A stretch of 23,596 nt of DNA from a virus, in IMG/VR virus record IMGVR_UViG_3300011113_000614, positions 1 to 23,596 of that record; one strand, written 5' to 3'. Below, piece after piece: positions 153 to 23,129 of this stretch. Positions within the stretch are counted from its first letter, which is position 1; each line of letters begins with the position of its first letter. Under the pieces are notes generated by a model. The model was given only the letters and a program-made list of their open reading frames with translations. It was not told the DNA's origin and did not search any database. A program made the translations under genes and the position numbers.

Positions 153-635
153 TTATTTGAAAAAAGATTTAATCGTTACAGGTTCTTCTCCGGATTTTAA
201 ACATTCAGTTAACCATTCTGCAGGTATTTCTTTTTTTGCAACATGCACGATACCTAATTTTTTTGCATACATTTCATAAGTCGTTTTGCTTGTTTTAGAT
301 AAACGCTGATTCGGATTCTGAAATACCATGCGTATATCAATTCCAGGATTTGATGCTAAAACATGTTTCATTTTTATACGATCTGCAGTAGTCCAACGAC
401 CTTTTGTTTCTATGTACATAGTAACGCCATCCCGTTTAGTAAATACGAAATCCGGCGTATATTTATGACGCGATTCTGGTACTACGTAATTTAATGATTT
501 TGTTTCATAATTCAAATCATACGGGCTAGATGTTATTTGTTCTGCAATAACATGTTCTAAACCAGATTTATAACCATGTTTAAGTGCTGCAGCTCGTTTT
601 GAATTGCCGGCACTATGAAAGTGATTTTTTCGCAT
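153..635 (-). CDS. T7 endonuclease I-like Holliday junction resolvase
   Basis: This 160-aa protein matches phage T7 endonuclease I (gp3), which cuts four-way and branched DNA during recombination and before packaging. The match rests on ordered motifs: SGLE at 24-27, YTPDF at 59-63, ETKG at 76-79, DIRMVF at about 99-104 and PAEW near residue 139. By family comparison the active-site carboxylates and lysine are E27, D62, E76 and K78, all present. Length (T7 enzyme about 149 aa) and start fit; the N-terminus is basic. It is the last gene of the minus-strand array in this window, 18 bp after the peptidase-like gene, and no clear Shine-Dalgarno sequence is seen. In T4-like phages this job is usually done by gp49 (endonuclease VII), so a T7-type enzyme is a non-orthologous replacement or an addition. 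Family assignment is confident; its role in this phage is inferred. Confidence 0.93.
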   Translation of the reverse strand: MRKNHFHSAGNSKRAAALKHGYKSGLEHVIAEQITSSPYDLNYETKSLNYVVPESRHKYTPDFVFTKRDGVTMYIETKGRWTTADRIKMKHVLASNPGIDIRMVFQNPNQRLSKTSKTTYEMYAKKLGIVHVAKKEIPAEWLTECLKSGEEPVTIKSFFK

Positions 636-653
636 AACATTTATTTTTAAATT

Positions 654-1499
654 TTAAAAATCTCCATTAAATGTGAGTTTTTTATCTTTTATTTCCCAAC
701 CTAATACAGTTTTTCCATCCATTTTAGGTTGTTTTAATTTATATAAAATTGTATCTTTTCGCTTTTCTTTAATAAAAGTTGACATCAATTGTTGTAATGT
801 GTTTAAATAATTTTGATTAAACTTTAAAGCTTCTGCAACAGATTTATTATCTCCAGGTATAACTAAGAGTTTATTAGCAAATGTAGTATTCCATTCGTCA
901 TTAAAATAATCAACTGCTCCTGTTTCGTTATCATCCCATAAATCATCCCAACTACCTTTAAACTTACTAAATTTAGTAGTTGGATCATTTGCAATATCAA
1001 CTAAATATTTATGAGCTCGTACTTGTAATGCAGCAAGATCTACATATGTAGATGGTTTAGCTAAGTTTAACCCACTATTTTTTCTTTCTTTACTTTTATT
1101 AGATGAATCTGTTGAATTTATTTTTCCTAATGCGCCGCCGTATACATGTACATGATTGAAATGATTTGCAATTTTCCAATGTGTCGAATATCCGCGCTTT
1201 TTCCACCAATCTGATACCCTATTACCAAGTGTGCCAGTGCATGGAATATCAATTGCTTTATTTTTATAATGATCACTGCTATTAGTATGAACCGGGTCTA
1301 TAGTAGGATCATTTCCAATTCCCGCATCATACAATCGACGATTTTCTCGCATTTGTAATGTATACGGCGTCGTGCTTGATGAAGGTACCCCAGATCCTAA
1401 TGGAAATTCTTTGCGAAAATCTTTTGCATCTTGTACTACTTTTTCCCAATCCGAGCTATCATCTTTTTGTTCGAATATTATATTTTTTAAACTTATCAT
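654..1499 (-). CDS. M15-like zinc peptidase (DD-peptidase fold) with capsid-targeting-like leader
   Basis: The 281-aa product has a putative zinc site of the LAS/M15 peptidase type: SDH at 75-77, AID at 82-84 (spacing H-x6-D) and HVHV at 116-119. M15 enzymes cut D-Ala-D-Ala or L-Ala-D-Glu bonds in peptidoglycan, so a wall-degrading role at entry or lysis is inferred. The first ten residues, MISLKNIIFE, form a short amphipathic leader ending in I-x-E, the pattern of T4 capsid-targeting peptides cut by the gp21 protease; similar leaders occur on the next two upstream genes. The region after about residue 125 is unassigned. There is no signal peptide. A late-motif copy lies 18 nt before the ATG. 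It follows the MORN-like gene with a 26-bp gap. It could be an endolysin instead, but no holin-like gene is adjacent. Confidence 0.6.
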   Translation of the reverse strand: MISLKNIIFEQKDDSSDWEKVVQDAKDFRKEFPLGSGVPSSSTTPYTLQMRENRRLYDAGIGNDPTIDPVHTNSSDHYKNKAIDIPCTGTLGNRVSDWWKKRGYSTHWKIANHFNHVHVYGGALGKINSTDSSNKSKERKNSGLNLAKPSTYVDLAALQVRAHKYLVDIANDPTTKFSKFKGSWDDLWDDNETGAVDYFNDEWNTTFANKLLVIPGDNKSVAEALKFNQNYLNTLQQLMSTFIKEKRKDTILYKLKQPKMDGKTVLGWEIKDKKLTFNGDF

Positions 1500-1517
1500 A
1501 ATGTTAAACTCATATAG

Positions 1518-1525
1518 TATAAATA
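1518..1525 (-). promoter_or_regulatory. Late-promoter-like motif TATTTATA upstream of the peptidase-like gene
   Basis: In the coding direction the sequence reads AATATTTATACT, ending 18 nt before the ATG at 1499. It is one of nine copies of the core TATTTATA in front of genes in this window. Part of the surrounding motif overlaps the 3' end of the MORN-like gene. The promoter role is inferred from position and recurrence. Confidence 0.4.
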
Positions 1526-3301
1526 TTATTCAATCTGCAAATTATCATTAACCCAATACTTTTTATATACCTTATTTTTATATGTAAATTCTAATAAATA
1601 AAACGTAGTATTAGGCATACTATATGTTTTAAGTAAACGTAAATTAGTTAAAGTTTTAGCTATTGGTTTAAGTTTTTGAGCTTTGAACTTATAAGTTACA
1701 TTAGCTTTCAAACTTGAAATTTCAGCTGGGTTTATTTCCTTATCATTTTTATCCCATACTGTATACAATGTCATTGATTTATTAGGATTAATCCATTTAT
1801 ATTTAGGTATTGTTAAATCATCTTTAATTGCAGCTGGTAATTTTTTAGACTGCGTTTCAGATGGTACTAATCCATTTAATGTTTTTACTGATAAATCTTT
1901 ATAATCGGCTTCAAAACTTGTAATAGTAAGATTTCGTATTTCTTTATTGGATTGTTTAGTTGTAAAATATACAAAATTTTCATGCTTATAAACTTTGCTA
2001 GTAATTCCTAACTCCTTAACTCTCGCATCAGTAAATGGATATTTAAATGTTTTATTTTTTATTTTTTCAACACGTTCTTTTTCTTTCTTTTTAGTTGTTT
2101 CCGCGTCTTTTTTCTTTTTTGCTTCGGCATCTGCTTTAGCTTTTGCTTCTGCATCTGCTTTAGCTTTTGCTCTACGTTTTATTTCTTCTGGAGTTAATGT
2201 TTCTTCACCATTTTTTACTATTGATTTAACAGTGCCATCTTTATTATAAAAAGTACCATTAGCTAGTTGATTTTTTTCAGTTAATGTACCTATATATTTT
2301 TCTCCATCGCTGAAGTGAAATTCACCGTCTTTAAATTTAAAAGTAAATCCTGGATCTAATGGATCTCCAGTATATGTAGGCCACAATGTACCATTAAAAT
2401 AAATAAACCCTCCAAAACTATCAGATGTAACATAATCATAACCTGGGAATGGCGTCGTTTTTCCATTTAAATTTGTATCAGAATACCAAACTTCGCCTGA
2501 TTCAGGTAATCCTTTATTATTAAATTTTCCATAGAAAATACCTTTTCCCGGGCTGTCATATAATTGTTTAATAGATTGTATTCCTTCAATCGGAATTAAA
2601 ATAGTTTCACCAGTTTCTGGTACTGTAATTTGATATGCAGTTCCATGGAAACCGCCGGTGTCAATTGTAACAATTTGTTTATCTGCATTTTCGTCAAAAG
2701 TTAAATTAAAAAATTTTGTTGTATCTGGCAAAGATTTTTTTAATTTATCAAATAAAGAATTTACAACGGGATCGTTTAAACTAGTTGTAATCTTAGATAG
2801 TCTAGTTAATAAATTTTGATATTGTGTTGCATCGTAAACTTTTATATTTGATAATTGTGTTATTTCGTCGTTGCTAACAGCAGGCTGAGTTTTAAAATAT
2901 GCATTAGTTTTTATTTTAATATCTAATACACGTATAAATTCATTAACTTTTTGTCTATCAATAATAAATCCATAAAATTTTTTAATTTTTTTAGGATTTA
3001 ATGTTTTCAATGGCAATATAACATACATGTATTTAATATCATCATAAACACCGCCCGGGCCTAAAACAGCCGGTTGTGTTTTTATTATATCAACGATATC
3101 TTGTTGTATTGCGATGTCATTGACTGGATTTGCTTTATAAAAATTTTTAGCTTTTACAAAAAATCCGCGGAGTGCACCTGCATCTTTAGCAGCATCATCT
3201 GCTTTTCGTCCTTGTGCAGTATCACTTCCAAATATTTTTATATACCAACCAGAAGATTCTTGTTCAAGTATAAGTTTTTGTATATATCGTTCTATTTTCA
3301 T
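1526..3301 (-). CDS. MORN-like repeat protein with Lys/Ala-rich segment and capsid-targeting-like leader
   Basis: No family was recognised over the full length. The ATG at 3301 (591 aa) is chosen over a TTG at 3328 because it gives the leader MKIERYIQKLILE, ending in I-x-E like its neighbours. An N-terminal region of about 220 residues is unassigned. Residues of about 250-360 are rich in Gly and aromatics and include GKGIFYGKF and DGEKYIGTL, which resemble MORN repeats (membrane or protein contact modules of the form YxGxxxxG). Residues of about 372-417 are a highly charged Lys/Ala/Glu helix with a tandem repeat AKADAE. A C-terminal beta-rich region of about 170 residues follows. It lies between the kinase-like and peptidase-like genes. 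It is a candidate internal head protein, or else a tail-associated structural protein. The MORN reading is moderate; the leader reading is inference. Confidence 0.5.
   Translation of the reverse strand: MKIERYIQKLILEQESSGWYIKIFGSDTAQGRKADDAAKDAGALRGFFVKAKNFYKANPVNDIAIQQDIVDIIKTQPAVLGPGGVYDDIKYMYVILPLKTLNPKKIKKFYGFIIDRQKVNEFIRVLDIKIKTNAYFKTQPAVSNDEITQLSNIKVYDATQYQNLLTRLSKITTSLNDPVVNSLFDKLKKSLPDTTKFFNLTFDENADKQIVTIDTGGFHGTAYQITVPETGETILIPIEGIQSIKQLYDSPGKGIFYGKFNNKGLPESGEVWYSDTNLNGKTTPFPGYDYVTSDSFGGFIYFNGTLWPTYTGDPLDPGFTFKFKDGEFHFSDGEKYIGTLTEKNQLANGTFYNKDGTVKSIVKNGEETLTPEEIKRRAKAKADAEAKAKADAEAKKKKDAETTKKKEKERVEKIKNKTFKYPFTDARVKELGITSKVYKHENFVYFTTKQSNKEIRNLTITSFEADYKDLSVKTLNGLVPSETQSKKLPAAIKDDLTIPKYKWINPNKSMTLYTVWDKNDKEINPAEISSLKANVTYKFKAQKLKPIAKTLTNLRLLKTYSMPNTTFYLLEFTYKNKVYKKYWVNDNLQIE
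2127..2170. repeat. Tandem duplication inside the Lys/Ala-rich segment
   Basis: A 24-bp unit beginning GCATCTGCTTTAGC on the plus strand is present twice back to back; the second copy matches for about the first 21 bases. It encodes the repeated Lys-Ala-Asp-Ala-Glu stretch of the MORN-like protein and keeps the reading frame, so copy number could change without a frameshift. Confidence 0.75.
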
Positions 3302-3305
3302 TTTA

Positions 3306-3313
3306 TATAAATA
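3306..3313 (-). promoter_or_regulatory. Late-promoter-like motif TATTTATA immediately before the MORN-like gene
   Basis: The coding-strand sequence is ATATATTTATATAAA directly followed by the ATG at 3301, so the core ends only 4 nt from the start codon. If it is a promoter, the transcript would be essentially leaderless for this gene, which makes this the least comfortable of the nine copies. It could instead be an A/U-rich translation or processing element. Confidence 0.3.
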
Positions 3314-3317
3314 TATG

Positions 3318-3854
3318 TCACCAATCAACCATTACCATTTTTCCATCCCACATCATAATGTTTTCTGATCTAAAATCTAAATCTAAATCAAATTCCGGAA
3401 TAGCAAGTTTTTGTATATCTGTTTGTAATGCATTTAAAAAATTATTTAGTTGTTTATTTACCGAATCAGTTTGGTCAGTAAACTCAAATATAGAAACTTC
3501 TCCGCCCTGTTCCCTAGCAAACGCACCAAAATCTCGCATAAACATATCAATTTCTCGCTTTATCGTTTCAGGTAACGGTTCTGCATTAGCCATTATAAAC
3601 ATATCTGACCCATTAACATAATATACTGGTATAAATGTAGAATATGTTGCGTGTTTATCTACTATACGTGCTGCTACTTGATATTCATCTCGTTCTTTAG
3701 TAATTTTAAAAACTTTATCTTCCCCATCGATTTCATAAACACGTCCATTATCACCAGCACCGATAATTTTAAAATCATTGTTTTTTATCTTTTGTAAACA
3801 ACGTTTTAAATCTGAATCAGACATTTCTCGTAACAATTGTTTTAATCGTATCAT
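3318..3854 (-). CDS. Minimal protein-kinase-like fold protein ending at the DFG-equivalent Asp
   Basis: The 178-aa product shows ordered kinase-fold motifs: a glycine-rich loop GAGDNGRVY (32-40), the Lys of VFKIT (K50), a hinge-like MFIMANAEPLPET (about 85-97), a catalytic-loop-like DFRSEN (D160 to N165) and VDW (176-178), equivalent to the DFG/IDW metal-binding Asp. The protein stops right there, so the activation segment and the rest of the C-lobe are missing. In this fold such residues bind ATP and magnesium and transfer phosphate to a protein or small molecule. The N-terminus MIRLKQLLRE ends in L-x-E, like a T4 capsid-targeting peptide. The ATG overlaps the stop of the upstream fibre-like gene by 4 bp, so it is translated with late structural genes. 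Activity and target are unknown; it may be a pseudokinase. The fold call is moderately firm. Confidence 0.65.
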   Translation of the reverse strand: MIRLKQLLREMSDSDLKRCLQKIKNNDFKIIGAGDNGRVYEIDGEDKVFKITKERDEYQVAARIVDKHATYSTFIPVYYVNGSDMFIMANAEPLPETIKREIDMFMRDFGAFAREQGGEVSIFEFTDQTDSVNKQLNNFLNALQTDIQKLAIPEFDLDLDFRSENIMMWDGKMVMVDW

Positions 3855-5479
3855 GATATATTCCTATCTAAATCTAATCGTATTAAAAAATTCATATCAA
3901 CATCAGAACGTTTACGTATAGGCTGTGCTAATTTACCGATAGCTAATAACTGTCCGGCATCATCATATAATCCAATTGTTGTAATATATGGAGCAAAAGA
4001 ACTACCAGAAACAAATGATTGATATGTAGAATCATCATCTCCTGTAAGTGTTAAATTAGATGACATATTAAAATCTCCTGAATCTAATCTTGTAGTTACA
4101 TTCATTTCATATAATGTTATAGTACTTTTATATGATGCTGAATAAGGTAAATATAAAATATCATCGTAACGATAATCCGGAGATGAAATAACAGCTAATC
4201 CTTGTTTTGTAAATACGTTTCCAACGTGATTAGTTTGTAAAAATGTACCGCCTTCCGATCGATCTGCTAAATAACCAACTTCTGTAGAAGTTAACGCTTT
4301 ATTATAAATACGTATTTCATCTAGTTTACCTTGTAAATTCATCGATGTAGTATCAAACCCACCAATAAATAATTCAGCTGAGTTATCAATTCTAGCAGAT
4401 GCTGTAAATGGAGAATTAATAAAAGATAATAAATTACTAGATGCAGAAGCATGAAGTACTCCATTGATATACATTTGCATATCACTACCAGATTTTTGAC
4501 ATAATACATGAGTCCACGTATCAGCAATAATTGATGATGTTAATGTAGTTTTAAATTCAGTACTACCAGCAATTTTATAAACAATTTGATTGCTTCCACT
4601 TAATTCAATTGAAAATGGATATTGTGGCGCTAACGAACTAGATGCTTTTGTAATAATTAATTCATTATCATTAGTAGAATTCGCTCCAGATATAAAAAAC
4701 GAAATAGCATAATTTGTTTGTCTATTATATACACCATCAATCGAAGTACGAATATAACCTGTACCTGTAAATTCTGCAGATAATCCAATTGGTCCGGCAA
4801 ATCCATTAGATGTTGTTATACCATTTACGTATGTTACATTAGCATATTCATACGCAATTCTATTAGAATCAAAATATTCGTTAAAACCTTCATAAAATGT
4901 ATTTTTAGAAATTATTGATGCAGTATTAAATGATGCATCATATAAATTTCCATAACGATCTGATTTAATAAATACTGGTACTGTAACAGTATATGATCCG
5001 GTACCGTAATACGATGTTCCATATATACTACCGTAAATAAAACTACCCGTTAAAATAAATGATTCTTTTTTTATACCTTCACCTATTTTAACTTGCGGAA
5101 ATGATATAATAGACGCAGATTGATATAAAAATTTTTTTGTACGATTTAAATCTGTAGGTCCGTATGTTAATGAAGGATATTGTTTATACTTGTAATATTG
5201 ATGATTTACAGAGTAATATGTTATAGTTTGTAAAGAACCATCAATATTACTAGAGTCATTATATGTTAAATTAGTACCTAATACTGGTAATACATTAATG
5301 TTAGAATATATACCAACTAATGGTAACGCACTGCTAGTAGAACTACCAGAAATGATATTCCATGTTTTATATACTTGAAATGCATTTATTTTAACATCGC
5401 TTGAATCGATTTTTTTAAATACTGTAGGGTAGATTCCTACATAATCAATTTCATCATGAGATATTCTAGATTCAGCCAT
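3851..5479 (-). CDS. Tail or fibre protein with LamG-like (concanavalin A-like) domain
   Basis: The 542-aa protein carries a LamG/concanavalin-type beta-sandwich at about 230-390. Typical signs are FTGTGYIRT at the start, DTWTHVLCQKSG with MYINGVL in the middle and LQGKLDEIRIYNKAL at the end. Such domains bind glycans or mediate trimer contacts in phage fibres, so a role in host attachment is inferred. The last 40 residues (ITTIGLYDD... then LLAIGKL) match the C-terminus of the next upstream gene, showing a shared module. The rest is Ser/Thr/Tyr-rich beta structure typical of virion proteins. It is the last large structural gene before the kinase/MORN/peptidase cassette and overlaps the kinase-like gene by 4 bp. 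The start lies 5 nt after the T-run of an intrinsic terminator, and no Shine-Dalgarno sequence is visible. Confidence 0.7.
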   Translation of the reverse strand: MAESRISHDEIDYVGIYPTVFKKIDSSDVKINAFQVYKTWNIISGSSTSSALPLVGIYSNINVLPVLGTNLTYNDSSNIDGSLQTITYYSVNHQYYKYKQYPSLTYGPTDLNRTKKFLYQSASIISFPQVKIGEGIKKESFILTGSFIYGSIYGTSYYGTGSYTVTVPVFIKSDRYGNLYDASFNTASIISKNTFYEGFNEYFDSNRIAYEYANVTYVNGITTSNGFAGPIGLSAEFTGTGYIRTSIDGVYNRQTNYAISFFISGANSTNDNELIITKASSSLAPQYPFSIELSGSNQIVYKIAGSTEFKTTLTSSIIADTWTHVLCQKSGSDMQMYINGVLHASASSNLLSFINSPFTASARIDNSAELFIGGFDTTSMNLQGKLDEIRIYNKALTSTEVGYLADRSEGGTFLQTNHVGNVFTKQGLAVISSPDYRYDDILYLPYSASYKSTITLYEMNVTTRLDSGDFNMSSNLTLTGDDDSTYQSFVSGSSFAPYITTIGLYDDAGQLLAIGKLAQPIRKRSDVDMNFLIRLDLDRNIS

Positions 5480-15004: not shown

Positions 15005-15437
15005 TTGTACGTCCAATTTCCAATTGTGCTGTTTCGTCAACACTAATAATTATAGTGTCTGTTGATATATCGTTAAATGAAAATGTTATTCGAATTTGAA
15101 CTACATAATCTAATGTAGGATCGGTTTCTGGAGTAATAACTTCGATTTGTTCGATATTAATATATGGTAACCAAAAATCAACAGGTGGATTAATTATATC
15201 TTCAATTGCTTGTTGCAAGAAATCTGTATTAGGCTCAAATAATACATTTAATAAATTGGTACCAAAATTTGGTTGTGCAATTCGTTCGCCTGTTCTGGTT
15301 AATAATAAATTCTTAAAATTTTCAAAAGCTTGATCTTTAGATAAAAAAATTGGCTGAAAATTCGATACCGATATACCTAACCCAATCTGTGGTTGTAAAT
15401 TAGTTGTTTCATTGATATCGATTATTTTATACCCCAT
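14994..15437 (-). CDS. 25: Baseplate wedge protein, T4 gp25-like (gpW family)
   Basis: The 147-aa product carries the gp25/gpW-family core, FENFKNLLLTRTGERIAQPNFGTNLLNVLFEP (spanning about 38-69), with the hallmark arrangement of LLLTxxGER then PxFG. In T4, gp25 is the wedge component that contacts the first sheath ring and starts sheath assembly. Length matches T4 gp25 (132 aa) with a slightly longer N-terminus. The start codon overlaps the stop of the upstream gene by one base (TAATG), and its 3' end overlaps the gp6-like gene by 11 bp, so the three are translationally coupled. The assignment is firm. Confidence 0.92.
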   Translation of the reverse strand: MGYKIIDINETTNLQPQIGLGISVSNFQPIFLSKDQAFENFKNLLLTRTGERIAQPNFGTNLLNVLFEPNTDFLQQAIEDIINPPVDFWLPYINIEQIEVITPETDPTLDYVVQIRITFSFNDISTDTIIISVDETAQLEIGRTNGN

Positions 15438-15916
15438 TATTTACCTTTTTTTTTATCTATAGCTTTCATGAGAGCTGAATAATCTCGAGTCATTGCTTTT
15501 GCAACAATTGGATCTACCTGTAAATTTTTACCTGTTTCAGGATCTTCCATTATTTGCGGCGCAGCTGTTCTAGGCATACTATTTTGTCTAACTGCTCCAA
15601 ATCCAGCAGCATCGCGTGATGAAAATGACAACGTTTCCATTTCTTCATTCATCATCTGTGCAAAAGACCCAACCGAAGATTGTTCTCGTAACGAATCAGT
15701 TTGGTTTAATACAGAAGCCCATTTATTTTCGTTAAATTGTACTTTGTTTTTTGTTTGTGCGACTGGTTTTGTTTGTGCCACTACATTAGTAGTTTTTGTA
15801 GATGTCATCTCATTAATAGTAGATTGTAACCCTTCACGAAGAATTTCTGTTAATTCTTCCTTTATAACTTCACGTACGGCAGTTTTAAGTGCTTTTATAA
15901 GTGTTTTTGAATCCAT
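15437..15916 (-). CDS. Small helical virion-region protein, unknown
   Basis: This 159-aa product is not recognised. An amphipathic N-terminal helix (LIKALKTAVREVIKEELTEIL, within residues 5-26) is followed by a low-complexity Thr/Val/Gln linker and a polar C-terminus ending in Lys residues. It lies directly upstream of gp25-like with a one-base overlap, so an assembly or baseplate role is likely by position. It may be a small hub or tube-capping component, or a chaperone; nothing in the sequence decides this. A late-motif copy precedes it, and no strong Shine-Dalgarno sequence is seen. Confidence 0.55.
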   Translation of the reverse strand: MDSKTLIKALKTAVREVIKEELTEILREGLQSTINEMTSTKTTNVVAQTKPVAQTKNKVQFNENKWASVLNQTDSLREQSSVGSFAQMMNEEMETLSFSSRDAAGFGAVRQNSMPRTAAPQIMEDPETGKNLQVDPIVAKAMTRDYSALMKAIDKKKGK

Positions 15917-16783: not shown

Positions 16784-17758
16784 TTATGTAATTTTAATTT
16801 TATATTTTTTACTATTTAATTCAGTATTCAATAAGCGTTGTGCTTCTTGTAAATCAGCTAAACCATTTGTGATTGCAATACCTCCGGCAGAATCAGTGCA
16901 GCCGGATTGTATAGCACAAATTATATTTTGTAATATATTTTCTAAAACATATCCATGCGGTATAGGTTGTGTTGCATCATCTCCTCCGATTAATACCTCA
17001 CCCGGCGTTTGCATAATGATTGCTCGTTCTGAATGAATAATAGCAACATCTGATTTAGCAGTTAATGAAATTCTATCTGCTATTCCTATAAATTGCGAAC
17101 CGTTAGGTGTTTTAAATTTCTCTGTTAACTTTTTATTAAAGTCTAACTGTATATTTTGCGTACTAGTTAAATATAATGACGATGCATCTGTATTTGGATT
17201 TTCTACTACAAATCGATTGTTTGGTAAATTAGATGTATTATTAGATAATATGATAATAGGATCTGATTCAGGCCCCGTCCATGATGGATTTATAGAATAT
17301 TTAGATTGATTATTTTGTATACTACTACCTAAACGAATAGTATTTCCAAAACGCCCTTCGAATAATAAATCGCCTTCATATGGCTGTAATGGTGATATTA
17401 CTTTTGAATCAGTTGGTTGTGGTATATCTATATTATTATTAGGAAATTGCGATATAGAGGGGAGTCTATTATCATTGATAGCTGTCTGAATATCAATATT
17501 TGATAAATAGTAATAACAATATCCTCGCCACTTATTAGACGAAGCTTGATTATTAAAAGATTTAAAAACTAATACTAGTTCACCAACCTTAGGTATTTTC
17601 TTTACATTATTATTTGCCGGAATTGCAATAAATGGATCTTTATTAAAATATGTATTACATGATCTTACATAAATTGCAAAATTTTGTTCTGAATCATATT
17701 GATATGTTTTATCATAACTGAGTACTTCTGCAACATCAAATGAAAGAATATTATCCAT
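16784..17758 (-). CDS. gp5-like baseplate hub/spike protein without lysozyme domain
   Basis: The 324-aa product has an N-terminal OB-fold-like region (about 1-90, with KIPKVGELVLVF at 54-65) and then YEGDLLFEGRFGNTIRLGSS (127-146) with SDPIIILSN (165-173), a combination known from gp5/gpV/VgrG-type central spikes of T4-like environmental phages. In T4, gp5 is the cell-puncturing spike below the hub and carries a lysozyme domain. Here no lysozyme-like catalytic region is visible and the protein is much shorter than T4 gp5 (575 aa). The later part (about 215-260, ISLTAKSDVAIIHSERAII) could be the start of a beta-helix. The start overlaps the preceding stop by one base (TAATG). The family call is good; the absence of lysozyme is seen directly. 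Confidence 0.75.
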   Translation of the reverse strand: MDNILSFDVAEVLSYDKTYQYDSEQNFAIYVRSCNTYFNKDPFIAIPANNNVKKIPKVGELVLVFKSFNNQASSNKWRGYCYYYLSNIDIQTAINDNRLPSISQFPNNNIDIPQPTDSKVISPLQPYEGDLLFEGRFGNTIRLGSSIQNNQSKYSINPSWTGPESDPIIILSNNTSNLPNNRFVVENPNTDASSLYLTSTQNIQLDFNKKLTEKFKTPNGSQFIGIADRISLTAKSDVAIIHSERAIIMQTPGEVLIGGDDATQPIPHGYVLENILQNIICAIQSGCTDSAGGIAITNGLADLQEAQRLLNTELNSKKYKIKIT

Positions 17759-20380: not shown

Positions 20381-21412
20381 TTATTCTAAAATTAATGGTA
20401 TATTATTTTCTTGACAACATATAACATTAAGTTGCGATAAAGCTAACTCCTTGGCCTTGGCCTCTACCTCGATATCTAATGCATCAACACCATATGTGTC
20501 GGGAAGACGCGTAATGAAGTCGGCATGAGCTTGCTCCTTGATCTTGGTAAACTCCTTGTATTGTTTGTGAAAGGTAGGCCATTGTTCAATATTGTCCATG
20601 GAGATACCATGATGATCAAACATACGCTCAATAAGAATTTGATGTTCGCGTCGACGTGACTCGGAGTAATGTGTGCATTGAATGGCATCGTTAACAGCCC
20701 ATGTGTCGCGAGCCATGAAGAATGCTTCTTGTTCGGATATGTCACCTGTATTGAAAGTGTGATGCCAATAGTCAAACGTAATAGGAATACGTGTCGGAAC
20801 ATGCAAATACTCATACAACTCGCGAACTGAATACATGGAAGCCTTATCATCATTCTCAACAACTAAACGTGCACGACAAGAGTCAGATAAACGTCGATAG
20901 TTAAACAACCAACGTGCAACGGTACCGGGCTTGTCATTGTATGTGGCACCTATATGAATATTGATAAGATTGTCAAAAGATGGTGCAAAGCCCATGAGGT
21001 CAAACATTTCGGAATGTCGTTCAAGACCAATGATAGAATTGTCAACAACTACGTCATCGGGACTACCTAAGATATGAAACGGACCAGGATGCGTTGTAAG
21101 ACGATGGCCATGAGCACGTGCATAGTCACCTGCAATACGAAGATGATGTGCGATCTCATCAATACCAGGCAAGTCACGTAACTCGTAATGATTCCAACGC
21201 GGAAATATTTCTGAACCGATACGGAATAGGCGAATACCTTGTTGCTCATTCCATTGCAGAATAACGAGTAAATCGCGAGCATTGGCAAGTGCAATGTCGG
21301 AAGCAAGTTGCAAACCACCTTGTTGAAATTTGCGATCAATCATTGCACGGCCGGTGCGGATGCCGGCGTGAGAAAGCTGTGTATTGATACAGCAATAACC
21401 TAGGCGAATCAT
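20381..21412 (-). CDS. uvdE: UV damage endonuclease (UvdE/Uve1 family)
   Basis: The 343-aa protein is a UvdE-family TIM-barrel nuclease, which nicks DNA 5' of cyclobutane dimers and other UV lesions to start repair. Visible family motifs are FRIGSEIFPRW (63-73), HPGPF (108-112), NIHIGATYNDKPGT (151-164), VVENDDK (184-190), FDYWHHTF (213-220) and HYSESRR (248-254). The metal-binding residues expected from the Thermus enzyme have counterparts here (H108, H153, E186, D214, H217, H248). Length is normal for the family. It plays the part that DenV (endonuclease V) plays in T4. The DNA is visibly richer in G+C (sampled lines mostly 43-52 per cent) than its neighbours (about 30) and uses other third-position bases, which suggests recent acquisition. 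It lacks the late motif in front but has a possible sigma-70 promoter. Confidence 0.93.
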   Translation of the reverse strand: MIRLGYCCINTQLSHAGIRTGRAMIDRKFQQGGLQLASDIALANARDLLVILQWNEQQGIRLFRIGSEIFPRWNHYELRDLPGIDEIAHHLRIAGDYARAHGHRLTTHPGPFHILGSPDDVVVDNSIIGLERHSEMFDLMGFAPSFDNLINIHIGATYNDKPGTVARWLFNYRRLSDSCRARLVVENDDKASMYSVRELYEYLHVPTRIPITFDYWHHTFNTGDISEQEAFFMARDTWAVNDAIQCTHYSESRRREHQILIERMFDHHGISMDNIEQWPTFHKQYKEFTKIKEQAHADFITRLPDTYGVDALDIEVEAKAKELALSQLNVICCQENNIPLILE

Positions 21413-21437: not shown

Positions 21438-21465
21438 ATTATATGAAAAATTATTGACAATTCAA
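21438..21465 (-). promoter_or_regulatory. Possible sigma-70 promoter for uvdE
   Basis: On the minus strand TTGAAT (21460-21465) and TATAAT (21438-21443) are separated by 16 nt, and the -10 hexamer is perfect. The ATG at 21412 lies 25 nt beyond. The -35 part overlaps the 3' end of the HNH gene. Low base complexity makes this uncertain, but it would allow early expression of the repair gene by the host polymerase. Confidence 0.35.
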
Positions 21466-22109
21466 AGTTTCCATTTGCATTTAGCTAGATGTTGACGTTT
21501 AATTACAGATGCACTATGAGTTAACTTGCAGTATGGACATGTTAAATAACGTAAATTATATTTACCTCGTTTTTGTCCAGTACGAGAAGCAACTGATTTT
21601 TTTATTTGTTGTTGTATTCTAGGATCATCCTTCGTCAATCCTGCATTCCATCTAGTTGCATTAGCAATTTTTGCCACCCGCGGATCTGATTTTGTTAATC
21701 CCGAGCACCAAGACGATTTTCCTCTACGTCCGCTGTTTTGTTTCATTTTAGCTCGTATTTCATCAGTGTGTTTTTTACCATAATAATGATTTAATTTACC
21801 AGTATTACGCTTTGCAAATTCCATACGTAAATAATCATATTCTCGTGCAGTTATAGCAATATTTCTTTTATTTTGCTTTAACATAGCCATTGCATAATAA
21901 CCTTTAAGAATTCCATGATGTTCTGGATATATTTCGCAAAGAAGCTTATGTATGATGAAATGTTCACGAGCAGTTAAATAAACAAGATTATCTGCATGAT
22001 TTGTTCCACCCATACATTTTGGAACAATATGATGTCGTTCTTTGTAACCTGTTAACGTTCTCGTACGAGCTCGTTCAATAATAACGTCATGTATTTTTTT
22101 ATAATCCAT
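21462..22109 (-). CDS. HNH homing endonuclease with NUMOD-like repeats and C-terminal zinc finger
   Basis: The 215-aa product begins with an HNH nuclease domain (HHIVPKCMGGTNHADNLVYL at 26-45, with further His at 50 and 54), then NUMOD3-like DNA-binding motifs (NHYYGKKHTDEIRAKM at 107-122) and two copies of a (S/A)GLTKxDPR unit at about 136-144 and 156-164. It ends with a C-x2-C-x12-H-x3-C zinc finger (C191, C194, H207, C211). This architecture is typical of free-standing phage homing endonucleases, which cut a related phage lacking the gene and are copied by repair. It lies between the divergent plus-strand gene and uvdE, and has a structured leader that would cover its AAGG ribosome-binding site. 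The DNA target is unknown. Confidence 0.88.
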   Translation of the reverse strand: MDYKKIHDVIIERARTRTLTGYKERHHIVPKCMGGTNHADNLVYLTAREHFIIHKLLCEIYPEHHGILKGYYAMAMLKQNKRNIAITAREYDYLRMEFAKRNTGKLNHYYGKKHTDEIRAKMKQNSGRRGKSSWCSGLTKSDPRVAKIANATRWNAGLTKDDPRIQQQIKKSVASRTGQKRGKYNLRYLTCPYCKLTHSASVIKRQHLAKCKWKL

Positions 22110-22274: not shown

Positions 22275-23129
22275 ATGAAAAACATCTTAGCAGAAAATTT
22301 ACTTCGATTTGGAGTAAAGAATTTATCTGAAGATATCAAACGTAAATTGCAAGAACAGCCTGAGCCTACAACGGACCCATTTGATTTAGGTGCCGGTAAT
22401 AAATTAAATCAAACATTAGGAAATGTATTAGATGCTAAGCAAATAGAATTATTGAATCAAGGGAAAGCGGCTGTTAACGACAGTACGCAAAAGCAAATAT
22501 TTGATAATTATTATGCAGCTAATACATCACCGGTTGGTAAGTATTTAATACTTGGTGGTATTTCTCCATCGTCTAAAATAATAGGTCCAATTCAATCTGT
22601 ATTACCATTTAGTGATATCTCCGATGGATTAGCCATATGGACAACTAAAAAAGCTGTATTTAATTTTGCAGGAATACAAAAAGCATATTTAGAAAATGCA
22701 GGAGGGTTTCTAGAAACAAGCCTGTCACATGGTATCAATGATCGATATGTAAAATCTGGCGATGTTTATCTAAATAAACGAGGAAATAGACAAACTGAAT
22801 TAATCCTACCACCATATCCAACTAATGGGTTAGCTGGTATGCCTATGACTTACTTTGCGCCATACTCTGCCAATACTATGTATTATGATTATTTTGTAGA
22901 TACGACCTCTAATGTAGGAATTAATAAAAATATGTTTAATGTTTATGATAAAGCTAGAAAACTAGTAGGTATGGTACCGATGCAAATACAAGGTATGGTA
23001 AGTAATTGGGATCAAACCGGATTAGATATTAGAGTAGATAAAAACGTAGAAGCTCAGATTCAATCTAAACGCAAAAGATTAGAAAAAACGGATCCGAATA
23101 GTGATATTATAACTGGAATACCACTCTAG
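22275..23129 (+). CDS. Unknown protein with capsid-targeting-like N-terminus
   Basis: The 284-aa protein is not assigned to a family. It starts MKNILAENLLRFGVKNLSE, an amphipathic leader containing L-x-E sites (LSE at 17-19 and LQE at about 25-27), followed by an acidic/proline linker (QPEPTTDPFD). This resembles the cleavable leader of T4 head proteins. The remaining part is mixed, with Gly and aromatic residues and no membrane helix; a basic tail (QSKRKRLEKTD) precedes the end. It is the only gene on the plus strand in the window, has a strong ribosome-binding site (AAAGGA, 7 nt from ATG) and its own late-motif copy, and converges on a DUF2927-like gene 18 bp away. A head-internal or prohead protein is suggested by the leader; an ordinary virion protein is the alternative. 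Confidence 0.6.
   Translation: MKNILAENLLRFGVKNLSEDIKRKLQEQPEPTTDPFDLGAGNKLNQTLGNVLDAKQIELLNQGKAAVNDSTQKQIFDNYYAANTSPVGKYLILGGISPSSKIIGPIQSVLPFSDISDGLAIWTTKKAVFNFAGIQKAYLENAGGFLETSLSHGINDRYVKSGDVYLNKRGNRQTELILPPYPTNGLAGMPMTYFAPYSANTMYYDYFVDTTSNVGINKNMFNVYDKARKLVGMVPMQIQGMVSNWDQTGLDIRVDKNVEAQIQSKRKRLEKTDPNSDIITGIPL

Follow-up and report, generated by a model that had tools for sequence, protein, structure and literature searches.

What does it mean when neighbouring phage genes with unrelated bodies begin with the same short N-terminal pattern? The question is raised by three consecutive minus-strand genes in a 23,596-base fragment (hereafter the window) of one virus record, IMGVR_UViG_3300011113_000614, which carries tail and baseplate genes of a T4-like phage. 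An earlier note on this DNA had compared the three leaders to the capsid-targeting sequences of T4 and proposed that the proteins are packed in the head and injected with the DNA. We found the genes and leaders as it described them, and we judge it likely that the leaders form a prohead-targeting tag on interchangeable cargo that is cut by an S77-family protease and probably injected. The computable parts of the earlier interpretation are supported; virion packaging, cleavage and injection we infer by analogy with T4. The locus is organized as follows (phi, hydrophobic residue).

153-635, minus strand: T7 endonuclease I-like gene (PF05367, 6.3e-33; synteny), downstream border of the variable cassette
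654-1499, minus strand: M15-like zinc peptidase, candidate cargo; leader MISLKNIIFE, then Q
1470-1499, minus strand: leader MISLKNIIFE, 10 residues, predicted cut after E10, register of T4 IPIII and gp24
1526-3301, minus strand: 591-residue mosaic protein, weakly MORN-like, candidate cargo; leader MKIERYIQKLILE, then Q
3263-3301, minus strand: leader MKIERYIQKLILE, 13 residues, phi-x-x-phi-phi-x-E
3318-3854, minus strand: predicted minimal protein kinase, 178 residues, conserved cargo; leader MIRLKQLLRE, then M
3825-3854, minus strand: leader MIRLKQLLRE; M1, I2, L4 and E10 invariant in 60 orthologs
3851-5479, minus strand: laminin-G-like protein (PF13385), conserved on the upstream side of the kinase gene, with 54-82% identity in relatives

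Relatives are plentiful: the baseplate gp6-like protein of the window matches more than 500 related IMG/VR stretches and, over its full length, proteins of two cultured phages, Flavobacterium phage immuto (40% identity) and Microcystis phage Mel-JY01 (54% identity). Each of the three window leaders fits phi-x-x-phi-phi-x-E, the register of T4 IPIII (MKTYQEFIAE), in which residues 4 and 7 serve targeting and residues 8 and 10 processing (PMC9026906). Among 60 distinct kinase orthologs, the four invariant leader residues are joined by L7 (57/60) and L8 (58/60), and positions 6 and 9 vary freely; the conserved positions are thus in the register that T4 requires. The expectation that a targeting leader might be better conserved than its body was borne out in this family, with a mean entropy of 0.11 bits over leader positions 1-5, 7, 8 and 10, compared with 0.94 bits in the body and 1.53 bits in the linker that follows the site.

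The pattern extends well beyond the kinase. Across 12 related contigs and the window, a strict leader expression matched 57 of 1,287 open reading frame (ORF) starts and 12 of 5,987 internal methionines (Fisher p 5e-32), counts that are not all independent because some contigs are near-duplicates. A looser pattern, defined as the T4 register phi-x-x-phi-phi-x-E within 22 residues, was present in 11-14% of N-termini and 3-4% of internal windows in the three largest relatives and immuto, an excess over background of about 15 proteins per genome, and in none of 37 T7 proteins. The leaders come in two main forms, A (MIRLKxLLxE) and B (ILAENMRRFGTKNLSE), which occur singly or as A+B fusions on about 33 unrelated body families, in agreement with the earlier view of a shared tag on unrelated bodies. 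When 42 leader proteins were force-aligned, a consensus appeared solely in the leader (MxxLKxLLxENxxRFGxKNLxE, with one E invariant); because these proteins had been collected by their leaders, the alignment shows that the bodies are unrelated and gives no independent proof of a tag. Position P3 is L or I in nearly all cassette leaders, some of which are shorter than 10 residues, the window leaders being 10 and 13 residues long.

A search for other proteins with the same leader found them in relatives and recovered a fourth in the window, which the earlier note had missed; its leader type is common to other body families.

22275-23129, plus strand: fourth leader protein, starting MKNILAENLLRFGVKNLSE; two-site leader MKNILAE, NLLRFGVKNLSE, then D; type B

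Immuto has a repeated leader of its own, MENFDLKKFLVENKLTxNSxLLKE, on several different proteins (L081-L083; record 1803, 103806, 117631, 118632), with two sites mostly at 12-residue spacing.

The genes that carry these leaders change while the leader stays. The kinase and endonuclease I genes are separated by zero to two genes, and 76 complete cassettes held 46 different contents comprising 68 ORFs. Despite this turnover, 66 of the 68 (97%) retain a leader site, [LIVF]xE within residues 2-22, compared with baselines of 35% for N-termini (ORFs of at least 100 residues) and 17% for internal windows of the same proteins. Even one relative whose kinase and endonuclease are 92% and 86% identical to those of the window has an unrelated gene in the gap, which still begins with a short I-F-E site. 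By gene content, the gap is a turnover hotspot. Judged from the sequences, the leaders are not a chance pattern, because the strict expression is enriched at ORF starts and the cassette sites are so fully occupied. In its layout the cassette is like the ip hotspot of T4, whose injected inhibitors are unrelated and have the leader alone in common (PMC12373910).

A tag of this kind would need a protease. A Peptidase_S77 (gp21-type) gene was not found in the window, as the earlier note had said of this 23.6 kb fragment. Outside it, an initial set of 14 related contigs yielded Peptidase_S77 (PF03420, the gp21 family) in 12, the exceptions being a 27 kb and a 34 kb fragment; a further 16 contigs yielded it in 9, and none of the seven lacking it exceeded 26 kb. 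Every tested relative of at least 31 kb has it, that 34 kb fragment excepted, as do immuto (at 124660-125241) and Mel-JY01. In relatives, about 20 kb separate the cassette from the protease gene beyond it (in G011, kinase at 17120 and protease at 37029), so that the window's own copy would fall beyond the window end. The N-terminus of the relatives' protease, MSKQLIVEYMPFKPVGSLTE, has two x-E sites at 12-residue spacing, the same as leader B. In L123:7996-8628, an example of these protease genes, the N-terminus MSKQLIVEYMPFKPVGSLTES shows this pair of x-E sites at the leader B spacing.

The bodies named in the earlier note fared unequally. For the 3318-3854 product, structure prediction and sequence together support a minimal kinase fold with all catalytic residues. 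G34, K50, E57, D160, N165 and D177, corresponding to the Gly-rich loop, the VAIK Lys, the catalytic D..N pair and the DFG Asp, are identical in all 60 orthologs, and the protein terminates at the DFG-like motif. The model has a predicted local distance difference test (pLDDT) score of 84.7, with leader residues 1-8 below 50. Foldseek ranks kinases or kinase-like phosphotransferases highest, an OspG-type minimal kinase first; the best VIA-align score was a moderate Z of 8.0, with a root-mean-square deviation of 4.2 over 124 residues. A profile built from the body only matches an immuto protein (103366-103806; E 2.3e-6) that independently starts MISIYNILKE, in the same register. The gene for this homologue is one gene from a primase gene, and a similar protein follows the endonuclease I gene in uncultured relatives. 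The kinase and MORN-like window proteins had no tblastn match in 50,697 phage records. Matches of the kinase profile to PDB sequences (S100-A9, myosin light chain) were spurious.

The M15-like identity of the 654-1499 protein is supported at the family level. Seven members, the window protein included, share invariant S75, H77, D84, H113, H116 and H118, which form the SxHx(6)D and HxH zinc-ligand motifs, and the family profile matches a solved M15-like structure or domain at 1.4e-10. Relatives carry PF13539, and more distant ones include mycobacteriophage endolysins and tape-measure proteins. A peptide-pattern search found no close relatives, which were later located through the cassette. Taken singly, the window protein had no Pfam match, the window cargo proteins in general yielding nothing useful in Pfam, and its model was poor (pLDDT 60). 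MORN likeness of the 1526-3301 protein is weak: PF02493 matched one of 64 cassette proteins, at 0.005, and the window protein had no match. Its divergent N-terminal domain is common to other cassette proteins. Two neighbouring proteins of another contig, L143:10273-12618 (MORN-like) and L143:12615-13382 (M15-like), have an apparent common C-terminal module, YFxxYKGxxWIPGD, which suggests domain swapping among cargo.

We propose that the leader is a propeptide that would bind the prohead core and so take unrelated proteins into the head of a T4-like phage as it assembles. A gp21-type S77 protease would then cut after (L/I/V/F)-x-E and release the cargo, which would be held with the DNA and most likely enter the next host along with it. 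The kinase-like protein would be a constant cargo of this phage group, possibly active as infection begins; the next one or two genes would be a swap site, at which the cargo changes and the leader alone stays. Cargo acting on peptidoglycan could open the wall during ejection or work in the periplasm. Core binding and the later steps are drawn from the T4 precedent, and the targets of all cargo are inferred.

Comparison with known systems supports reading this as a variant of the T4 internal-protein system whose repertoire is both larger and different. It is not categorically new, because the tag, the protease and the logic are known from T4. T4 IPI, IPII, IPIII and Alt, all cut by gp21, share the N-terminal leader (10-19 residues, with (L/I)-x-E at its end and hydrophobic positions 4, 7 and 8), the unrelated bodies, the variable locus and the genome-encoded S77 protease. 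They differ in leader sequence (here MIRLKxLLxE, LLEQIIRxxLLE and ILAENMRRFGTKNLSE), in number (here N-terminal matches exceed background by about 15 per genome) and in cargo, which here includes a kinase and wall-acting proteins; these phages lie outside the T-even group, and no T4 IP bodies were seen in them. The propeptide of the T4 vertex protein gp24, a known gp21 substrate, has a near-identical 10-residue form (MAKINELLRE), but gp24 is a shell protein and not cargo. The inner-body and ejection proteins of phiKZ and SPN3US, processed by gp175-type proteases, offer further parallels in the many head proteins cut after x-x-E, the injected bolus and the redundant propeptide sites; they differ in their S/A-x-E motif, their propeptides and their jumbo-phage setting. 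T7 gp0.7 is also a phage protein kinase, and its PHROG is weakly matched by 3 of the 60 orthologs, but it is made early in the cell, has no such leader and is much longer. OspG-type effector kinases are likewise minimal, but they are secreted bacterial effectors with no sequence relationship shown. We found no earlier description of the leader family in the open-licence literature.

Several observations weigh against a tag for loading and injection. Mel-JY01 has the protease and no significant N-terminal leader enrichment. P1' is often Q in cassette leaders (32/66), and S or A mostly follows the sites of the likely major capsid protein and the protease in the same phages. Head genes are absent from the window, a fragment, and virion proteomics for any member of the group was not found in the open-licence literature. 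Wall-acting domains (Phage_lysozyme, Phage_lysozyme2, LysM, M23, PG_binding_1 and Peptidase_M15_4) recur among the cargo, a statement about occurrence in cargo for which the non-leader comparison covered one genome and its best 25 of 95 families; such peptidoglycan hydrolases could also point to a lysis or tail role.

The alternative that survives best accepts capsid targeting and cleavage and takes the cargo to be structural or assembly-related proteins that stay in the head and are not injected. The kinase gene sits among structural genes in all relatives. In T4, IPIII influences head assembly, and certain core proteins are cleaved and for the most part exit the head (PMC9026906). We nevertheless consider this explanation unlikely, because the conserved kinase catalytic residues and the wall-acting domains point to enzymes at work in the host, and the turnover of the cassette resembles an arms-race locus, unlike a structural gene. 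Less probable again is an amphipathic tag for membrane association or export, or for docking wall-acting enzymes on the tail, unrelated to the head. The recurrence of wall-acting domains would fit such a tag, but by inspection the hydrophobic run in the leaders spans a few residues at most, shorter than in a signal peptide; in its invariant Glu and its phi4-phi7-phi8-E10 register the leader agrees with the T4 targeting sequence, and the same leader is found on the kinase and on small proteins without known wall function. An origin by chance or composition is barely tenable and we reject it: AT-rich phage genomes commonly encode short K/L/E-rich N-termini, and in the genomes studied here a loose [LIVF]xE site is present in 35% of N-termini and in 28% of internal windows, but the enrichment over internal methionines in the same genomes, the cassette occupancy, its absence from the T7 ORFs and the invariance across 60 orthologs with two free positions refute it.

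If a prohead-targeting tag on injected cargo is indeed what the leaders are, they would serve as an address label that flags, across hundreds of uncultured phages, proteins that are candidates for injection; unannotated genes would become testable candidate effectors. The T4 ip locus proved a source of anti-defence proteins (PMC12373910), and the cassette would offer new ground in which to seek them. More tentatively, and at somewhat short of an even chance, a widespread uncultured T4-like lineage may deliver some 15 or more different proteins per virion through a modular head-loading tag, among them a near-universal minimal kinase acting on the host ahead of all phage gene expression, exchangeable hotspot effectors and wall-degrading enzymes. 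A protein kinase injected in this way would give the phage a means of host takeover of which we know no example among the well-studied phages.

Some details of the window remain to be described. The middle gene is taken to start at its first ATG (3301); starting at an upstream TTG would lengthen the product by nine residues and make it overlap the preceding gene. The kinase and laminin-G genes overlap by four bases. At 15437-15916 (minus strand), in the baseplate region, lies the gene of a protein whose N-terminus, MDSKTLIKALKTAVREVIKEELTEILRE, is amphipathic and fits the loose leader pattern; the protein resembles an immuto protein adjoining the baseplate genes (81525-81944). An HNH-like endonuclease ORF at 21462-22109 (minus strand), possibly a mobile insertion, also has a start that fits the loose pattern, probably by chance. 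The neighbouring 20381-21412 product (minus strand) looks like a UvdE-type UV endonuclease, and a PF03851 protein is also present in the relative G003.
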